The notes: generated by a model not told the origin, from the letters alone. A DNA stretch of 64,000 nt from Candidatus Krumholzibacteriota bacterium (GCA_024276305.1 JAJRXK010000111.1:1-64000), one strand, 5' to 3'; numbered from the stretch's first letter, positions 11,731-43,791 are shown. Numbers and translations are program-made.

Positions 11731-12810
11731 CTAGACCCCGGCCCCGATCTCGAAGCGGCGTAGCTTGGAGTAGATGAGGTCGATGTCGCGTTCTCGAGCT
11801 TTGCGCGAGAGTTCCTCGTTCACGCGCAGCGCCTCTGCGGCCCGCGGTCCGGCCTCGCCGTGGTAGGCGTAGAAGGTGTCGCGGTAGTACTCCCGGCGAT
11901 CGCGGTGACGGGCGGGATGATCGATCGCCTCGAACACCGCCTTCACCAATGCTTCGCCGGATTCCACTCGATCTCCCGCATCGCGGTAGACTCTCTCCAC
12001 ACAGTCGGTCATTTCCAAGCCTGGCTGATCGAGGAGGACCACCGGCGTATCCGTGGCGCAGGCCTCGAAGATCACGCCGCTGTAGTCAGTCAGCACCACA
12101 TCGGCCGCCACCACCGCTTCGATCCCCGCCCGAAGCGGAGAGATCATCCGGGTGCGGGATCGGAGTCCCTCGAATCTCGGTCCTTCCTTGAGGTAGCTCA
12201 CGGGATGAAGCTGACTGAGTACTTCGACGCGAGATGCGACTTCGGTGAGAGCTTCGGCGTAGATCTCATAGGTGCACAGATCCCCGAGGGTGGGGGCGTA
12301 GAGGACTACGGTGGCATCCCCATCGATGCCCAACTCCTGCCTCGCGGACTCGCGGGTGAGCACTCCATTGAAGTAGTCATCCAGTTTCGGATAGCCCACC
12401 ACTCTGGCCGACACTCCCTGCCGCTCCATCAACTCCCGTCCGAAGTCCGAAGCCACGAAGATCTCGTCGTAAGGAAGATTCTTGTCGCTGTAGGTGTATT
12501 GCTTGCTGATCACCGCATAGAGCATCCGGACTTGTCGGGTATAGGTCTGTCCCACCATCCGCGGCTCGATTCCCAAGGTGGCGAAGACATTGGGCTCGAC
12601 CTCCAGCGAACCGCAGATCGACCGAACTCCCCGCTCGGCCAACCACACCATGGTCTCGCGAACGTGCTGGGCGTGGATGGCGGGATCTTCGGGAAGGTGC
12701 CACTTCCAGGGAGAGACGTGGATCGTGAACTCCTCGGGGGAGAGATGGCGGAGTACCGGCTCCCAGTTGCGGTAGTGCCAGGGTTCGTTGATGCTCAACA
12801 GGATGGACAT
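11731..12810 (-). CDS. CDP-glycerol glycerophosphotransferase-like (TagF family) transferase
   Basis: 359 residues from MSILLSINEPW; the longer frame before it only overlaps the previous gene. The C-terminal half matches the glycerophosphotransferase fold: VVLYAPTLGD, then LHPVSYLKEG, then the nucleotide-binding signature VLTDYSGVIFEACATDTPVV. Family members move a polyol-phosphate from a CDP carrier onto a glycan or lipid acceptor at the cytoplasmic face of the membrane. Here it is the last gene of the phosphoramidate-like operon and overlaps the formyltransferase-like gene by 16 bases. A CDP-linked donor made upstream makes it the best candidate for the transferase that uses that donor, but it could equally use CDP-glycerol or a related polyol. 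Confidence 0.8.
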   Translation of the reverse strand: MSILLSINEPWHYRNWEPVLRHLSPEEFTIHVSPWKWHLPEDPAIHAQHVRETMVWLAERGVRSICGSLEVEPNVFATLGIEPRMVGQTYTRQVRMLYAVISKQYTYSDKNLPYDEIFVASDFGRELMERQGVSARVVGYPKLDDYFNGVLTRESARQELGIDGDATVVLYAPTLGDLCTYEIYAEALTEVASRVEVLSQLHPVSYLKEGPRFEGLRSRTRMISPLRAGIEAVVAADVVLTDYSGVIFEACATDTPVVLLDQPGLEMTDCVERVYRDAGDRVESGEALVKAVFEAIDHPARHRDRREYYRDTFYAYHGEAGPRAAEALRVNEELSRKARERDIDLIYSKLRRFEIGAGV

Positions 12811-36831: not shown

Positions 36832-37569
36832 CTACTGCTGCCCGCAGACCAAGAAGGCCACGGTAAAGAGCACCGTGCCAGCGGGTAGGGTGTGCGCAGC
36901 GATGTAGTTGCTCATGCACGCCTTGCTGAAAGAAATACCACCTTGGGCGATCTGGCAGTTGGGAGGCGTCGCGTAGTTGTGCACCAGCAAACCGAAGTCG
37001 CCATTGCAGATCTCCTCGATCTGCTGGTGGGTCCCGTCATAGGCCAACGCACGCGCGCCGATTCCCGCCAGATCGTAGAAGTAGATCTCCTGGGTGTCGC
37101 TCTCCAGGCCCGAGAGGATCGTGATATTGCCCTCAGGATCCGCAGAGGCGGTCTGGATCAGCGCTTGGAAGTCGGCCACCGTGAAGGTGTACTCGACCAA
37201 GTCATAGGTCTTGTTGAGGGACCCGGTCGTGGGGTAGAAGCCGTGCTGAATGGGCTGGCGACTCATGGCCCCCTGCGCGTACTGGACGACCAGTTGAGGG
37301 GAGATCGTGAACGACCCACACGAGGGCGGGGATGAACACCCAGAACTCTGGAAGGGGCCGGCCACCGTATCCCCCGGTCCGTTGTACGAACCGCCAGGAT
37401 CTGTCGGGCGCGTCCCCACCCTGTACTGCAGCGAACCGGAGTCCGCTGAACCCATGGGAGATGCGGGGCGCTCCGCGCCGCAACCGGTCATGATCATCAA
37501 CAGGGCCGCGAGACCAAGCGCCGCAAGAAAGAAAACGTTTCGTCGGTGCATGCTGGACATGGTGGACAT
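36832..37569 (-). CDS. Lipoprotein next to the S8 protease
   Basis: 245 residues from ATG 37569, 8 bases after GAGGAG. A signal with lipobox (LLMIMTGC) predicts an outer- or inner-membrane lipoprotein. The mature part is Gly/Ser/Pro-rich to about 80 (with a CSSPPSC pair), then has no known motif; YEYTFT-like strands (VEYTFTVADFQALIQTASAD, EIYFYDLAGIGARALAYD) suggest a small globular domain with four more cysteines, ending VCGQQ. It is the next gene after the S8 protease on the same strand, about 110 bases on, and may be part of the same system. Confidence 0.7.
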   Translation of the reverse strand: MSTMSSMHRRNVFFLAALGLAALLMIMTGCGAERPASPMGSADSGSLQYRVGTRPTDPGGSYNGPGDTVAGPFQSSGCSSPPSCGSFTISPQLVVQYAQGAMSRQPIQHGFYPTTGSLNKTYDLVEYTFTVADFQALIQTASADPEGNITILSGLESDTQEIYFYDLAGIGARALAYDGTHQQIEEICNGDFGLLVHNYATPPNCQIAQGGISFSKACMSNYIAAHTLPAGTVLFTVAFLVCGQQ

Positions 37570-37681
37570 GAAGAACTCCTCGATGAATAGGGGCGACTGT
37601 CCCTCGTTCGCTTGTGCCTGGACAGCCGCCCCAAGGGGCCACCATGTCTGGTTTTCGTGCATGCCGCGGGGTAAGAAAAAC

Positions 37682-39028
37682 TCAGGGGGTCAGTCCACCA
37701 CCACCGAACGACAACGACACCCGCTCCGCGGCTTCCTTTGGATCGATGCGTCCGTACTGCGTCATGTTGGTCGGACTCGTTGGGTCGCACACCGCGCGCA
37801 TCTTTCGATAAGCCCTGCGCGGACCCCATCCGCCGATCTCCATCAAGCTCGCTACACTTCCGGACACCAGCGGTACCGCAAATGACGTTCCCGACCCCGT
37901 CGTATAGCCAGGACCCATGGACCCCACCCCGGGGATCGCGCATCGTATCCCCACGCCGGGCGCAGCCACGTCGATCGTCAGACCGCTGAACCGACTGAAC
38001 CAGGCCAGTTGATCGACGGCATCGACGGCAGCGACACCGATGACCCGAGGGGACGTAGCCAGAGGGGATGGGGTGGTCAGCAGGGTGTTCGTGGTATTGC
38101 CCGCCGCAGCCACCACTAGGACACCTTCGTCGGCCAACAGGGTCGCCGCCCGATCGATCAATTCGATCGGGCGGGAAATCGACATGCTGAAGTTGAGGAT
38201 GTCCACGTCCAGCGCGGGATCCAGTGCCGCCACCACGACCTCGACGAGGTCGTAGAGACTGCCCACGCCGGTGGAGTCCAGGATCCGGGCAGGAAGCACC
38301 GTGGCATCCGGCGCCGCCATGAGCACCAGACTGGTCACCGCGGTCCCGTGCCCGTAGGCCGGAGCCAGGGAAAGATCCTGTGGTTCCGGTTCCACCGAAC
38401 CCAGTCCATGGAGCTGCGCATCGAGCAGTTCCAGGTGCCCCAGGAGGGCCGGATGGGTGGGGTCGACCCCGCTGTCGGCCACCAAGACGCGCACCCCCGA
38501 CCCCGTGCCGTGGCTGTGGACCGCCCCGAGACCGAGTCGGGCGGTGGCTGCCTGTGATCCCGTGATCGTGTCCGTCCATTCACCCTCATAGAACCCGAAG
38601 GTGAGGTCCGCTCCCTCCGTGCCCACCGCATCGTTCGAAGCTGCGGCCAGGATGTCAGGATCGGCGATGAGTGCGTCGACGGAGTAGCTTCCCTGCAGGA
38701 CCGCATAGTGCGAATCCAGCTGCTCGACCACATTCAATCCCTGTTCGGTTGCGATCTGCGTCAGGGGGCGGGAAGGCGGCACCGCGACCTCGACGATGAC
38801 CTGCGACAGATCCACCGCGTGCAATACCACGATCGGATCGGTGGGAACCGGCTGGGTTGGCTTGGCCCATAACGGACCGGCGTCCGGTGCAACCACCGAT
38901 GCCGGTTCGTCACTGCAAGCCCCCAGCCCGATCAGGGCGAGGCCCAGGACCAGTGAGAGCCAGATCTTCGTCGAACACCCCCTCAGGTGCTTCCGCAGGT
39001 GCCTCCACGGCTGATCGGCATGGTTCAT
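37682..39028 (-). CDS. Subtilisin-family (S8) lipoprotein protease
   Basis: 448 residues from MNHADQPWRH (ATG 39028, GAGG upstream). The lipobox is LGA-C38, so the protease should be anchored in the envelope. A propeptide-like part (about 60-140) precedes a complete catalytic triad: Asp185 (VADSGVD), His227 (GHGTAV) and Ser382 (GSGTSFAVP), with the oxyanion Asn311 (AAAGNTT). It is therefore likely active. Subtilases of this type mature by self-cleavage. It is divergent from the sigma/anti-sigma/CHAT operon, and an ECF-type promoter points at it, so it is the predicted output of the circuit. Confidence 0.9.
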   Translation of the reverse strand: MNHADQPWRHLRKHLRGCSTKIWLSLVLGLALIGLGACSDEPASVVAPDAGPLWAKPTQPVPTDPIVVLHAVDLSQVIVEVAVPPSRPLTQIATEQGLNVVEQLDSHYAVLQGSYSVDALIADPDILAAASNDAVGTEGADLTFGFYEGEWTDTITGSQAATARLGLGAVHSHGTGSGVRVLVADSGVDPTHPALLGHLELLDAQLHGLGSVEPEPQDLSLAPAYGHGTAVTSLVLMAAPDATVLPARILDSTGVGSLYDLVEVVVAALDPALDVDILNFSMSISRPIELIDRAATLLADEGVLVVAAAGNTTNTLLTTPSPLATSPRVIGVAAVDAVDQLAWFSRFSGLTIDVAAPGVGIRCAIPGVGSMGPGYTTGSGTSFAVPLVSGSVASLMEIGGWGPRRAYRKMRAVCDPTSPTNMTQYGRIDPKEAAERVSLSFGGGGLTP

Positions 39029-39092
39029 TTCGACCTCGGTTTCGTTGGGGATTCGGCAGGGAAGTCTTTCCAGGACAATGGGTTGTCGATCG

Positions 39093-39117
39093 GACTGCGT
39101 CTCTGACGAGACGTTCC
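39093..39117 (-). promoter_or_regulatory. ECF-type promoter for the S8 protease gene
   Basis: On the minus strand GGAAC (39117-39113) is followed after exactly 17 bases by GTC (39095-39093, in GTCCGA). This matches the usual ECF sigma layout (GGAAC -35, GTC -10). The start would be near 39085, leaving a leader of about 57 bases. A CGTCTC-tgac-GAGACG hairpin lies inside the spacer. Confidence 0.5.
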
Positions 39118-39144
39118 GGCACCGGAGGGGCCACCTCAAGCCGT

Positions 39145-39180
39145 TTTGATGCACCCTGATTCGAGGCGAGATGCATCAAA
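39145..39180. promoter_or_regulatory. Inverted repeat between S8 gene and sigma operon
   Basis: Perfect 9-bp arms TTTGATGCA (39145-39153) and TGCATCAAA (39172-39180), 18 bases apart, about 50 bases before the sigma factor gene. The spacing (about two helical turns centre to centre) suits a dimeric regulator. It could control either or both divergent genes. Confidence 0.45.
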
Positions 39181-39228
39181 CGCCCGCCTGGTCGCCCCTC
39201 TCCCGTAGGCCCCGGTCGAGAGGATCCC

Positions 39229-39828
39229 ATGCACGCCGAACCCGCACCCGAGACGACCCGCGAGTCGGTCCCTTCTTCGACGGACTCCCCGGGGCTCGAC
39301 GACACCACCCTCTTGGCGCGTTGCCAGCAGGGGGATGAACTCGCCTGGGCAACGGTGGTCGAGCGCTACCAGGGGCTCGTCTACTCGACCGCCATCGAGG
39401 TCGGTCTCGATGGCGATGATGCCGCCGATGTTTTTCAATTCGTGTGGATCGAGTTGTACCGATCCATCCCGAGATTCCGGGATCCCATCGCCTTGCCGCG
39501 GTGGCTCATGGTCGCCACCCGCCGCTGCAGCTACAAGGTCGCGACCCGAAACCGCAGACACATCCGCGGAACATTCGAGGATCTGACCGATCCGGCCGCT
39601 CTGGCCCAAGAACAGGTCGAGGCCGCAGAAGACCGCCTTCGAGTCGAGAACGCTCTCCACCGGCTCGACCGGCGGTGCCGGTGGTTCCTGCGACGCCTGT
39701 TCTTCTCCAGCGAGAAAATCACCTACGACGAGTTGGCCCGTCAAACGGGTCTGGCGACCGGAACGATCGGCCCCTTGCGAGTCCGCTGTCTCAACAAACT
39801 CCGCCGGATCCTGGGAGAGGACCGATGA
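39229..39828 (+). CDS. ECF RNA polymerase sigma factor
   Basis: 199 residues. Sigma2 region: ATVVERYQGLVYSTAIEVGL with DVFQFVWIELYRSI and LPRWLMVATRR; sigma4 region: ITYDELARQTGLATGTIGPL ending RCLNKLRRIL. There is no sigma3, as in ECF factors. The first about 25 residues are a disordered Ser/Thr/Pro-rich stretch. It should direct RNA polymerase to a small regulon, including probably the S8 protease gene. The stop overlaps the anti-sigma start (ATGA), the classic pairing. Confidence 0.92.
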   Translation: MHAEPAPETTRESVPSSTDSPGLDDTTLLARCQQGDELAWATVVERYQGLVYSTAIEVGLDGDDAADVFQFVWIELYRSIPRFRDPIALPRWLMVATRRCSYKVATRNRRHIRGTFEDLTDPAALAQEQVEAAEDRLRVENALHRLDRRCRWFLRRLFFSSEKITYDELARQTGLATGTIGPLRVRCLNKLRRILGEDR

Positions 39829-40421
39829 CTGTGAAATCCCTTCATCTGGACGACCAGGAATGGCTGGATTGGGTGCTCGGCAACACCGATCCAGAGCGCG
39901 AGCGTTCCATGAAGGACCACCTGAAGGTGTGTTCCCGTTGCGCGCAGGAGCTTCCGGCCTACTCGCGCCTGCGCCGCTCACGCCAGATGCCCCATTGGGT
40001 CGACGCCCCGGTCGCCCTTCGCAAGAAGAGCCGTAGCCGGCCCCAGGTCGCACGGGCCCCGGTTCCTGGAGTCCACGACCATCGGATGGGATTCGCCCCG
40101 GCGGACATGCGCGGACACACGCTCGTCGCAGCCGCAGAACCCGGAAGTCTGCACGCCATGCTCTCCAGTGCGGAGATCGGGATCGTGGCCCATCCACCCA
40201 CCAATGACCCATACTGGGAGATCGAGGGGCGTGTGTGGCTGCATGAGCCCACCGATGCCCCCATCGACATCATGGTCTTTCACGAGACCCACGTGATCGC
40301 CCATGAAAACACTCGCGACGGCGAGTTCTTCCGCATTCGGGAGATCCTACCACGCGGGTGGGCCCTCGAAATCCACCTTCCCGATGAGCACACCGTCACC
40401 CTTCAGGCCCAAGGATCATGA
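39825..40421 (+). CDS. Soluble zinc-finger (ZAS) anti-sigma factor
   Basis: 198 residues from ATG 39825. The ZAS motif H32-x3-C36-x2-C39 (HLKVCSRC) binds zinc and caps the sigma factor. Unlike most anti-sigma factors there is no transmembrane helix: a basic linker (RKKSRSRPQVARAP) is followed by a beta-rich C-terminal domain (TLVAAAEPGSLHAML, WEIEGRVWLHEP, VMFHET-like strands). It should therefore act and be removed in the cytoplasm. The stop overlaps the CHAT gene start (ATGA), so all three proteins are made together. Confidence 0.85.
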   Translation: MTVKSLHLDDQEWLDWVLGNTDPERERSMKDHLKVCSRCAQELPAYSRLRRSRQMPHWVDAPVALRKKSRSRPQVARAPVPGVHDHRMGFAPADMRGHTLVAAAEPGSLHAMLSSAEIGIVAHPPTNDPYWEIEGRVWLHEPTDAPIDIMVFHETHVIAHENTRDGEFFRIREILPRGWALEIHLPDEHTVTLQAQGS

Positions 40422-43189
40422 ACCGGGACAGGTCTGACCTTCCCATCGAACGGAATGCGGCAACTCGACCTCAGCCGCAGGCCGCGCCCGCGGGCGACAT
40501 GGGTAGACCAGAATCCGCCGATCCCCACTTCGATGCGCTCTTGTCCCAACTGACCGCGCGCCTGTGGTCCGAACCCAGCGAGGTCCTCCGAACAGTCGAC
40601 GAGTTGGAACGGTCTCCCCTGCGTCCGGCACTGTCCGGTATCGCTAACGCCAAGCTCCTTCGTTTGCGCGCCCACGGGTTGCGGGCAGTCGGTCAGTGCC
40701 GGGCCGCGGTCCAAGCCTACGAACGCGCCACCGCCGCCTTCGTGCGTTGCGGGGCCGAGTCGGAAGCCGGACGGACCGCGATCGGACACGTCTTCGCCCT
40801 GGCGCTCCTTGGCGACCTTCGCACCGCAACCAGGATCGCTCGTATTGGTCGACACCGGCTTCCGCCTCCGGACCCACGCTCTCGTTCGCGACTCGAACTC
40901 AACCTCGGTCACGCGTACTTCCATGCCTGTCGACTCGACGATGCCGAAGACCTCTACGGTCGAGCGCTCGACCTGGCGCGACAGGCCGGCGATGGGGCGT
41001 CCATCGGAGCCGCCCTGCACCATCGGGGACTGGTGAAGTCGAAGCAGGGCGCGAGCAAGGAAGCCGCGGATCTGCACCGGCAAGCCATGCAGCTTCTCCG
41101 GTCGCACGGGATGGAATCTGCAGCGATGTACGCCGAAGCGTCTCTGGCCTTGGCAGAATTCGCTCTCGGTCACGAGCACGAAGGCTTGCAAACGCTGCAG
41201 CGCGTACGCCGGCGTATCGATTCGGGCGACGACCGCCGGGCCAAGGGTCTGCTGCGACGCGAGCTGGCCACTGGCTTCGCCGCCCTCGGTGCCTGGGGAG
41301 CTGCCCGCCACGAGGCGACTCTCGCCCTGCAGGAGATTCGCGGAACCGGGCTCGAAGAGGATGAGGCACGGCTGTCCTGTCTACTGGGGAGGGTGCAGTG
41401 GGCTCTGGGCTGGTACTCCGAAGCACGCACCCATCTCGAACAAGCCCGCCGCTTCTACGCCTCACGCGACAATCGCTGGCGCTTTCACCTCGCAGGTCTG
41501 GATCTGGCTCGGGTGTTCCTGGCCACTGGACGCGACGACGAGGCGGGAGCCATCCTCCGCGCCTCCGTGCGCTTCCTCCGCCGGAAGGATCCCCACGGCG
41601 ACGGCGCATTCGCCGAGGCGGTTCTCGCCGAGGACCACCTTCGCCACCACCGCCTCGGCCTCGCAATCCGCATGGCTCGTCGCGCTCGTCGATGGGCCAC
41701 TCACTTTCCCGCTTCCTCCTGCCGCCCCGCATTGGCTCTGCTGCTGGCCCGTGCCCATGGACGGCGCGAGCAGCCCGAGCTAGCGCGGCGTTGGGCGCAC
41801 CGCGCCGTCCGGGAAGCGGAGACCGTTCTCGATCGCTTCGGACCTCACCACTTGCAAGATGTCCTCGGGGAGTCCCGGGACCGTTTCCACGGAGCCGCGT
41901 TCGATCTCGTGCTCGAACACGGCGGTCGGCGCGCCCTCGTAGAGGCCGTACAGCTCCTCGCCCATGCTCGACGCGGTCCCCTGGTGGATGTATGCCTCAG
42001 CGAGAAGGACGGCATGACCGTCCGGTCCTTGCGTGGATCGATCTCCCGGCTGCGGGATGACCTCCTCAGCACGAGCCCCCACCCTGCGCACCACCGACCG
42101 TCGGCGGTACGCAGAGAGATCGAGCGTCTGGCTCAGGTCCTGGATCGTCGGGCGCATCGAGCTCGCGCTCGTGTCGACCGTGTCGTCGCAGACCCTCCCG
42201 TGCGGGAATGGGTCCGTTCCCTCTCTGGTCGCGAACTCGTGCTCTTCGATCGTAGTCACGAGGGAGGGTGGCGTGCTTTCCTCGTGCGCAGCGACGGAAG
42301 CGTCGAACTCCACGCACTTCCCGATCTCGAGCGTGCCCTGCACGACCATTGGCAGCCCCTGCACTTGACCTTCCAGACGGCTGCGTATGTCGATGCCGGT
42401 CGGCGACCCGTATTCTTGGAGCGCACGCTCGCCGACAGCGAGCGCTGCTTCCAAGAACTTGCTGAATCGATCTGGAGACCCCTACCACTGCGGACCTCCG
42501 AGGTGGTGGTCGTACCCCATGCATCACTGCACGGTCTGCCACTCGGCGCACTGGCATTGGACTTCGCATCGAATGTGTCGCGGGTTCCACACCCTGCCCT
42601 GCTCCGTCGGCCCTCGCCCGTGAGCCGGAAAGGACACGCCCTCCTCCTGCACGGAATCACGGAGGGGGCTCGCCGCGAAGCCAACGACCTCGGCCGGCGA
42701 CTTCAGCAGAGCGGATTCGAAGTCGAGATCTCTGATCGTCGCGAAATGCTCCTGCGCTCCCGCGCGCGATGGTCGGTCCTGCACGTCGCCGCGCACGGGG
42801 TTCGGCCTCCCGAGGCGATGCTCCCCGAAAACTGGCTGCTGTCGGGGTTGCAGCTCGAGGACGGATGGCTGGGATTCGAGTCGCTCGACCGCCGCACGCT
42901 CAGGGGCGCATTGATCTACTTGTCGAGCTGTGAATCTGCTGGCGCCGGTGCCGACGGAGGGGCGGGCCTGCGGGGATGGACTGCGGCAGGCCTGATGGCC
43001 AGCGCCCAGGAACTCCTACTGACGGCATGGAGAATCGACGACACGACGGCCTCCGATCATGCCCGCGCCTTCTACGAGCACTGGTGCGCGGGTGATTCCG
43101 TGGCCGTCGCTGCGGATCGCGCACGCCGCGCTCTCCGTCGGCAGCACCCACATCCATTCTGCTGGGCGGGGTTCGTGGCCGTGGGATGA
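40418..43189 (+). CDS. TPR-CHAT caspase-like protease
   Basis: 923 residues. The N-terminal about 450 residues form TPR repeats (for example AALHHRGLVKSKQGASKEAAD, ARTHLEQARRFYASRDN). The C-terminal about 300 residues form a CHAT domain with catalytic His793 (LHVAAHG) and Cys838 (YLSSCESAG), so the caspase-like active site is complete. CHAT domains are cysteine proteases used in bacterial signalling and conflict systems; in type III-E CRISPR a TPR-CHAT cleaves a partner that releases a sigma factor. Here no CRISPR is present, but the gene is coupled to a sigma/anti-sigma pair, suggesting the anti-sigma factor as substrate. Confidence 0.9.
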   Translation: MNRDRSDLPIERNAATRPQPQAAPAGDMGRPESADPHFDALLSQLTARLWSEPSEVLRTVDELERSPLRPALSGIANAKLLRLRAHGLRAVGQCRAAVQAYERATAAFVRCGAESEAGRTAIGHVFALALLGDLRTATRIARIGRHRLPPPDPRSRSRLELNLGHAYFHACRLDDAEDLYGRALDLARQAGDGASIGAALHHRGLVKSKQGASKEAADLHRQAMQLLRSHGMESAAMYAEASLALAEFALGHEHEGLQTLQRVRRRIDSGDDRRAKGLLRRELATGFAALGAWGAARHEATLALQEIRGTGLEEDEARLSCLLGRVQWALGWYSEARTHLEQARRFYASRDNRWRFHLAGLDLARVFLATGRDDEAGAILRASVRFLRRKDPHGDGAFAEAVLAEDHLRHHRLGLAIRMARRARRWATHFPASSCRPALALLLARAHGRREQPELARRWAHRAVREAETVLDRFGPHHLQDVLGESRDRFHGAAFDLVLEHGGRRALVEAVQLLAHARRGPLVDVCLSEKDGMTVRSLRGSISRLRDDLLSTSPHPAHHRPSAVRREIERLAQVLDRRAHRARARVDRVVADPPVREWVRSLSGRELVLFDRSHEGGWRAFLVRSDGSVELHALPDLERALHDHWQPLHLTFQTAAYVDAGRRPVFLERTLADSERCFQELAESIWRPLPLRTSEVVVVPHASLHGLPLGALALDFASNVSRVPHPALLRRPSPVSRKGHALLLHGITEGARREANDLGRRLQQSGFEVEISDRREMLLRSRARWSVLHVAAHGVRPPEAMLPENWLLSGLQLEDGWLGFESLDRRTLRGALIYLSSCESAGAGADGGAGLRGWTAAGLMASAQELLLTAWRIDDTTASDHARAFYEHWCAGDSVAVAADRARRALRRQHPHPFCWAGFVAVG

Positions 43190-43335: not shown

Positions 43336-43791
43336 GCCACCTACACCTTGAAGCTGGCCCCGGATGTACGGTGGGAGACTGGTGGATCGATAGCCTATCG
43401 GGAAACCGACGGCCTCCCTGCCCCAGAGCTTCTGGGAGATGAGGAAGAGTTCTCCGGAAAGGACTTTCGATGGGGACTCGAGACGCGTCTCTCGGCTGCC
43501 AACTGGGAACTCCAGGGAGAGTACATCCAGGCCGACCTGGATGGTCGACTGGCAACAGGCTACTACGTCTTCGCGGGGCGCGATCTGGGAACCCGCGACC
43601 AAGTGGTTGCCTCAGTGGAGCGGTTGGAGCTCCCACGCCCGGAGTCTACCGGGGATCCCTGGTACATCCTGGGGTTCAACCACTTCTTCTCGCAACACAC
43701 GAGCAAGGTGATGGTCGATGTACGTGTCCAGTTCACCAAAGAGAGCTCCATCTATCTGGCCACGATCCAGTACCAGCTCTTCTTTCGCTGA
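43336..43791 (+). pseudogene. Remnant of an outer-membrane porin (C-terminal part)
   Basis: The frame is open from 43240, but the recognisable part starts near 43336 (YTLKLAPDVRWETGGSIAYR) and ends in a strand-like C-terminus (IYLATIQYQLFFR), as in phosphate-selective (OprO/P) or related porins. It has only about 150 residues against several hundred for a porin. There is no signal peptide, no ATG/GTG start and no ribosome site near TTG 43348. It is best read as the 3' remnant of a porin gene that lost its 5' part, next to the CHAT gene. Confidence 0.55.

Follow-up and report, generated by a model that had tools for sequence, protein, structure and literature searches.

Does control of a sigma factor by a CHAT protease have to depend on a CRISPR (clustered regularly interspaced short palindromic repeats) system? 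The question is raised by a 64,000-nucleotide stretch of DNA from a Candidatus Krumholzibacteriota bacterium (GCA_024276305.1 JAJRXK010000111.1:1-64000; hereafter the window), in which positions 36,832 to 43,189 encode an extracytoplasmic function (ECF) sigma factor, a soluble partner protein, a caspase-like protease that joins tetratricopeptide repeats (TPRs) to a CHAT domain and, on the opposite strand, a lipoprotein protease of the S8 family. An earlier reading of the sequence alone had proposed that the CHAT protease cleaves the partner, taken as an anti-sigma factor, and frees the sigma factor to turn on the S8 protease, with a possible role in phage defence. By following this module across its little-known phylum, we find it on balance probable that it is a self-contained, CRISPR-free proteolytic circuit, in which CHAT cuts the partner and the freed sigma factor drives its own operon together with S8 and lipoprotein genes. 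The sequence shows the module to be conserved, its active sites to be intact and a promoter-like motif to be shared. CHAT proteases are widespread in bacteria and much of the functional knowledge about them comes from CRISPR-linked ones; no published description of a sigma, CHAT and S8 set was found in the literature searched.

A recurrent sigma, partner, CHAT and S8 module

The three operon genes lie on the plus strand with a four-base overlap at each junction, as the sequence-only reading had it. The first (39229..39828) encodes a sigma factor of the ECF family, with regions 2 and 4 and without region 3 (TIGR02937 at 67.9 bits against a cut-off of 42.9; Sigma70_r2, PF04542, above its cut-off and PF04545 below). 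The second (39825..40421) encodes the partner, which consists of a zinc-finger helical N-terminal part, a variable linker and an immunoglobulin (Ig)-like beta-sandwich. Its N-terminal H-x3-C-x2-C motif, which coincides with a sub-threshold zf-HC2 match (17.9 versus 22.2 bits), classes it as a predicted ZAS (class I) anti-sigma factor, and no membrane helix was found in it (best 17-residue hydropathy 0.98). Its predicted structure (predicted local distance difference test, pLDDT, of 79) has four helices and nine strands, with the linker modelled at low confidence; the beta-domain finds generic fold matches only (Z 7–8), and a search of the partner profile against PDB chains by sequence gave no match.

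The third gene (40418..43189) encodes the TPR-CHAT cysteine protease (PF12770, E value 2e-22; TPR_12), with neither a signal peptide nor a transmembrane segment at its N terminus. Its profile matches the TPR-CHAT of Craspase at 7.9e-10, separase at 6e-5 and DdvA, an anti-sigma factor of Myxococcus xanthus (PDB 8rot), at 5.3e-7, and its structure model (pLDDT 84.5) resembles both DdvA (Foldseek E value 1.8e-11) and Csx29. By alignment, His793 (codon 42794..42796) and Cys838 (codon 42929..42931) line up with the HG and CE of Csx29 and are found in all 42 CHATs aligned, so that the dyad described by the sequence-only reading is intact; judged by fold and dyad, the protein belongs with the CHAT proteases of clan CD.

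Divergent from the sigma gene lies the S8 gene (37682..39028, minus strand), whose product is, as the same reading had claimed, a triad-complete lipoprotein protease: it has a signal peptide, an LGAC lipobox (Cys38), a PF00082 match (E value 1e-26) and the triad Asp185/His227/Ser382, which is invariant across 15 module S8 proteins and marks it as a predicted S8 subtilase. Translation more likely starts at ATG 39028 (448 residues) than at GTG 39154, as the former gives the signal peptide and lipobox. Most module S8 proteases also have a GFYEG motif or a near variant ahead of the catalytic domain (residues 145–149 in the window), which may mark the border of a propeptide or a site of interaction. 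One copy (L052:4009-5364, genome G000) contains a single in-frame TAG inside the S8 match, which could reflect a damaged gene or a match drawn out too far.

Full-length relatives of the window CHAT occur in the window genome, in its genus mate and in two members of its family, one of them the Krumholzibacteriota metagenome-assembled genome (MAG) OFTM315, contigs of which were returned by a search with a three-sequence alignment. From these genomes, we fetched and annotated 20 CHAT-bearing stretches. The gene order sigma, partner and CHAT is retained at most loci of the window CHAT subfamily, and an S8 neighbour is present at 16 of the 17 loci of the soluble clade, whose CHATs are cytosolic (the exception is L051 in genome G002), compared to none of the 25 other CHAT loci of the phylum. 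In the 20 stretches, these neighbours are lipoproteases of one S8 subfamily. A sigma gene is found in 15 of the 20 CHAT stretches fetched outside the window's family, and genome G017, from another family, has a sigma factor, a ZAS partner and a CHAT with a divergent S8. The gene set is found again at over 15 loci, with about ten paralogous loci in one genome, and thus goes beyond chance; the co-occurrence of CHAT with the sigma pair outside the window genome, on which the sequence-only reading had staked its proposal, is borne out at many loci.

The S8 gene is divergent and upstream in the window, L039 and L045, convergent and downstream at L042, L044, L046, L047 and L049, and co-directional and downstream at L040, L041 (twice), L043, L048, L050, L052 and L053. 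Because it stands in every orientation, its linkage to the module appears to be selected rather than a mere inheritance of gene order. The distances of the components are also correlated (sigma and CHAT, r = 0.65, p = 0.0004; anti-sigma factor and CHAT, r = 0.63; CHAT and S8, r = 0.45, p = 0.002), of which only that of sigma and CHAT remains clear inside genome G003 alone (r = 0.81).

Two loci of genome G003 are split: L132:4212-5227 holds a sigma and a partner gene without CHAT or S8, and L046:5587-9387 a CHAT and an S8 gene without sigma or partner; the two may act together. At L041, tandem 48-bp repeats, which are not CRISPR-like, start at position 12738 near the module, in or beside a predicted gene.

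A promoter-like motif shared by sigma and S8 genes

In the window, a bipartite promoter-like motif, TGYATCAR-N15-CCYYT, lies 5′ of both the sigma and the S8 gene. The word TGCATCAAA occurs twice in their intergenic region, once per strand: facing the sigma gene at 39172-39180, with CCCCT at 39195-39199 (site 39172..39199, plus strand), and facing the S8 gene at 39153-39145, with CCCCT at 39130-39126 (site 39126..39153, minus strand). TGYATCAAA has only eight copies in the whole 3.5-Mb genome. As the motif was first noticed in the window, we tested it at other loci. Unbiased word enumeration in the upstream regions of sigma genes ranked GTATCAR first (7 of 16, against 5 of 135 other genes), and a two-part matrix (TGYATCAR, 15 bp, CCYYT), built in a leave-one-locus-out scheme from every locus but the one scored, placed the window sigma and S8 sites at ranks 1 and 2 of 127,932 window positions; at each locus tested, the module sites ranked between 1 and 5.

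When the matrix was trained solely on sigma and S8 promoters, the 21 top scores among 369 upstream regions fell without exception to sigma genes, S8 genes or genes for exported proteins, in a test that was partly selected, as some loci had been fetched because they held the pattern. Of the genes among these 21 that had played no part in training, six encode lipoproteins, one an orphan S8 and one a secreted protein. Genome G003 has two orphan S8 genes, far from any CHAT, which were found independently through a protein profile and were not used for training; their sites, at 22.0 and 22.5 bits, are close to the consensus. Within modules, an own site precedes 4 of the 17 S8 genes (window, L039, L045 and L048). 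The claim that the sigma factor turns on S8 therefore seems supported by the shared motif for the window and part of the family, namely three further module loci and the two orphan genes, and is not general, with 13 module S8 genes lacking a site of their own.

Lipoproteins at L126:2108-3451, L128:2865-3956 and L058:1865-2797 likewise have a sigma-type motif 5′ of their genes. All three have a hydrophobic, Gly-rich segment close to the C terminus and no Pfam family; they might insert into membranes as effectors or serve as structural lipoproteins. In G003, L128:2128-3956 is a divergent pair of lipoprotein genes with the motif on both strands between them, like the layout of sigma and S8 in the window. 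A contig from a MAG labelled Gemmatimonadetes (L095, JAGQIB010000655.1) encodes a CHAT fragment 53% identical to the L040 homologue; it also has a 19.7-bit motif site 5′ of an exported protein gene, which is divergent to a lipoprotein gene cut by the contig end.

A candidate cleavage site and matched compartments

The linker between the helical N-terminal part of the partner and its Ig-like sandwich is variable and poorly ordered. Within it, D94 and R96 are identical in all 14 partner homologues and are followed by G, A or S (D-x-R-[G/A/S]), while the columns around them mostly have an entropy of 2–3 bits. This is the sole invariant motif of the linker, and it is kept also in partners that lost the zinc finger. 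The window codons of D94-M95-R96-G97 lie at 40104..40115 (plus strand), a candidate site for cleavage by CHAT after Arg96.

At the other CHAT loci of the phylum, the anti-sigma factors carry a membrane helix; 11 of 16 have an LRG-type motif directly behind it, a number that none of 5,000 shuffles reached (mean of the shuffles 0.57). The compartments of the two proteins agree throughout: with L054 left out as unclear and hydropathy thresholds of our own, 14 pairs combine a soluble partner with a signal-less cytosolic CHAT, 18 a membrane partner with an exported CHAT, and mismatches number 0 of 32. Both types are present in the window genome, and the soluble forms cluster together in the CHAT tree. 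Given the invariant D-x-R-[G/A/S], the LRG-type motif of the membrane anti-sigma factors, the match of compartments, the correlated distances of CHAT with sigma and anti-sigma factor and the fused precedent of DdvA, cleavage of the partner by CHAT is plausible but unproven. Exported CHATs of other families (L164, L171 and L178) end in a second membrane helix past the protease domain and seem to be tethered to the inner membrane on its periplasmic side, which is also where the LRG motif of the anti-sigma factor lies.

Proposed circuit and alternative explanations

We infer that the partner binds and inhibits its cognate sigma factor, so that at rest the ECF sigma factor would be held by a soluble protein. 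A cytosolic signal, presumably sensed through the TPR superhelix, would activate CHAT, which would cut the partner linker between the Arg and the [G/A/S] of the invariant motif, after Arg96 in the window. The cut would split the sigma-binding part from the beta-sandwich and release the sigma factor, which could then transcribe its own operon and an outward-facing regulon (the S8 lipoprotease and exported lipoproteins) through TGYATCAR-N15-CCYYT, with sequence support in part of the family. As for its origin, the phylum is rich in exported CHATs beside membrane anti-sigma factors, and the soluble clade, with both proteins in the cytosol, may have acquired the S8 gene and expanded by duplication into paralogous loci. 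More tentative, and possible rather than probable, is the wider reading of a whole family of cytosolic, CRISPR-independent CHAT circuits that cut soluble anti-sigma factors at this motif and launch a surface programme of S8 and lipoproteins, having arisen by a move from periplasm to cytosol and been copied to about ten loci in one genome.

Several observations weigh against the circuit. The zinc finger is kept in 5 of 14 partner homologues, the window's included, and absent from 9, and an anti-sigma role appears firm only where it is kept; the ZAS anti-sigma factor of the sequence-only reading thus stands for the window protein and fails as a general feature. That CHAT cuts the partner is likewise something we infer, and the matched compartments may reflect one or a few evolutionary switches. 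Specificity for Arg finds no support from the enzyme side: in separase, the Asp that binds the P1 residue lies 41 residues past the catalytic Cys (PMC10317155), and the aligned residue of the window CHAT, at Cys+41, is Ser879, for which reason we dropped an argument for P1-Arg specificity by homology to separase.

On the promoter side, besides the partial selection in the upstream-region test, the orphan S8 of G002 has no site. Seven of the 13 site-less module S8 genes lie downstream of CHAT in the same direction and could share its transcript; the remaining five convergent genes and one divergent gene (G017) are unexplained by the motif. Genome-wide, the bipartite pattern is not enriched over a reversed control (25 versus 28; 33 versus 46), so that any regulon would be small; a large regulon was dropped as a candidate, and only local and a few distant targets are claimed.

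How do other explanations fare against the same evidence? TPR-CHAT might act on the partner by binding, as a sensor or scaffold; the sigma factor would then be freed by a conformational change or another protease, and CHAT would cut something else or only itself. This would suit DdvA, which carries a CHAT inside the anti-sigma factor itself, as well as the non-acidic residue at the separase S1 position, and the conserved D-x-R could then be a docking site. We nevertheless regard it as unlikely, if by no means far-fetched, since a dyad found in 42 of 42 CHATs would be needless in a pure scaffold and the sole invariant linker motif resembles a scissile site and lies on the CHAT side of the membrane. 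A second alternative, that the S8 lipoprotease is no output but acts upstream in the signalling, making or trimming an extracellular signal at the surface, is improbable. Its linkage in any orientation and the lack of an own sigma-type site in most module copies could mark a partner and not just a member of the regulon, but such sites do precede S8 in the window, at L039, L045 and L048 and at two orphan genes far from CHAT, and S8 is exported whereas sigma, partner and CHAT are cytosolic.

A phage-defence or abortive-infection module akin to the Craspase of type III-E CRISPR is suggested by the relation of the CHAT domain to Csx29 and by the resemblance of the gene set to the sigma, inhibitor and TPR-CHAT of DiCASP (PMC10028731). 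PADLOC, however, found no defence system, only weak generic TPR and subtilase models, PHROG searches gave no match for the partner, CHAT or lipoprotein, and the 64-kb window has no CRISPR-like repeats, and so no array beside the module as in type III-E CASP; no Cas7-11/gRAMP effector was noticed among the neighbouring genes, where no dedicated search was run. With a candidate regulon of exported lipoproteins, a defence role is very improbable, and we rejected it. We give next to no credence to chance or inherited adjacency without functional coupling: ECF operons are many in bacterial genomes, but the survey already contradicts this explanation through the S8 linkage (16 of 17 against 0 of 25), its varied orientation, the shared promoter motif and the paralogous copies in one genome. 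Of the circuit first proposed from the sequence, the module and in part the step from sigma to S8 have stood, cleavage of the partner is plausible, and the phage-defence role is unsupported.

Neighbouring genes

A small lipoprotein gene (36832..37569, minus strand), recognized in the sequence by a TGC lipobox, lies on the same strand as S8 and 3′ of it across a 112-bp gap. It has no family or PHROG match, and no homologue was found at the other module loci. Right after CHAT, a 147-residue open reading frame (43348-43791, plus strand) resembles the C-terminal half of an outer-membrane barrel protein; it has neither a good start codon nor a Pfam match and is possibly a remnant.

Relation to known systems

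In M. xanthus, the sigma factor DdvS becomes active once DdvA is inactivated, the signal being unknown (PMC4374960). Like the window module, DdvA/DdvS (PDB 8rot and 8rw5; PMC4374960) comprises an ECF sigma factor, an anti-sigma factor physically tied to a TPR-CHAT and a sigma-dependent promoter (PddvS), and an unknown signal is common to both. Whereas DdvA unites an anti-sigma domain, a transmembrane helix and a TPR-CHAT in one polypeptide, the window has two soluble proteins from overlapping genes, plus an S8 lipoprotease; the CHATs of the two are homologous. In the DiCASP system, Csx29 cleaves Csx30, the inhibitor of CASP-sigma (PMC10028731). Craspase (Csx29/Csx30/CASP-sigma) thus also has a TPR-CHAT with a His/Cys dyad beside an ECF sigma factor and its inhibitor, and cutting the inhibitor is believed to release the sigma factor (PMC10028731), in parallel to the circuit proposed here; in the window, by contrast, no CRISPR was seen, the search of the partner profile against PDB chains detected no sequence relation to Csx30 and the output looks like surface lipoproteins.

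Other proteolytic switches are related in part. CalpL cleaves CalpT, whereupon CalpS is released (PMC11417357), so that here too a cytosolic protease cuts the anti-sigma factor of an ECF sigma factor, but CalpL belongs to the Lon family, has a SAVED domain, responds to cyclic oligoadenylate as its activator and is linked to CRISPR. Separase also combines helical repeats with a clan CD protease and cuts after Arg (D/ExxR) in a flexible segment, yet it is a eukaryotic enzyme of cohesin cleavage whose S1 Asp is not conserved in the window CHAT. In RseA/DegS and RsiW-type systems, anti-sigma factors are inactivated by proteolysis as well, but these are membrane proteins whose first cut is made from the periplasm and whose second falls within the membrane, whereas the window pair is soluble and its partner has no such helix; the exported CHATs and membrane anti-sigma factors of the phylum look nearer to this type than the window pair does. 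The module would work like DdvA/DdvS, Craspase and CalpL/CalpT/CalpS, its nearest precedents, and is not a member of any of them, as the window has no CRISPR-like repeats and the partner and CHAT are not a fused transmembrane chain.

The module offers a testable substrate, the neighbouring anti-sigma factor, together with a predicted scissile site, a predicted promoter and predicted targets, and it suggests that Craspase-like control of a sigma factor need not rely on CRISPR. Confirmation would make it a CRISPR-free relative of switches that are triggered by a protease and have so far been known mainly from CRISPR defence.

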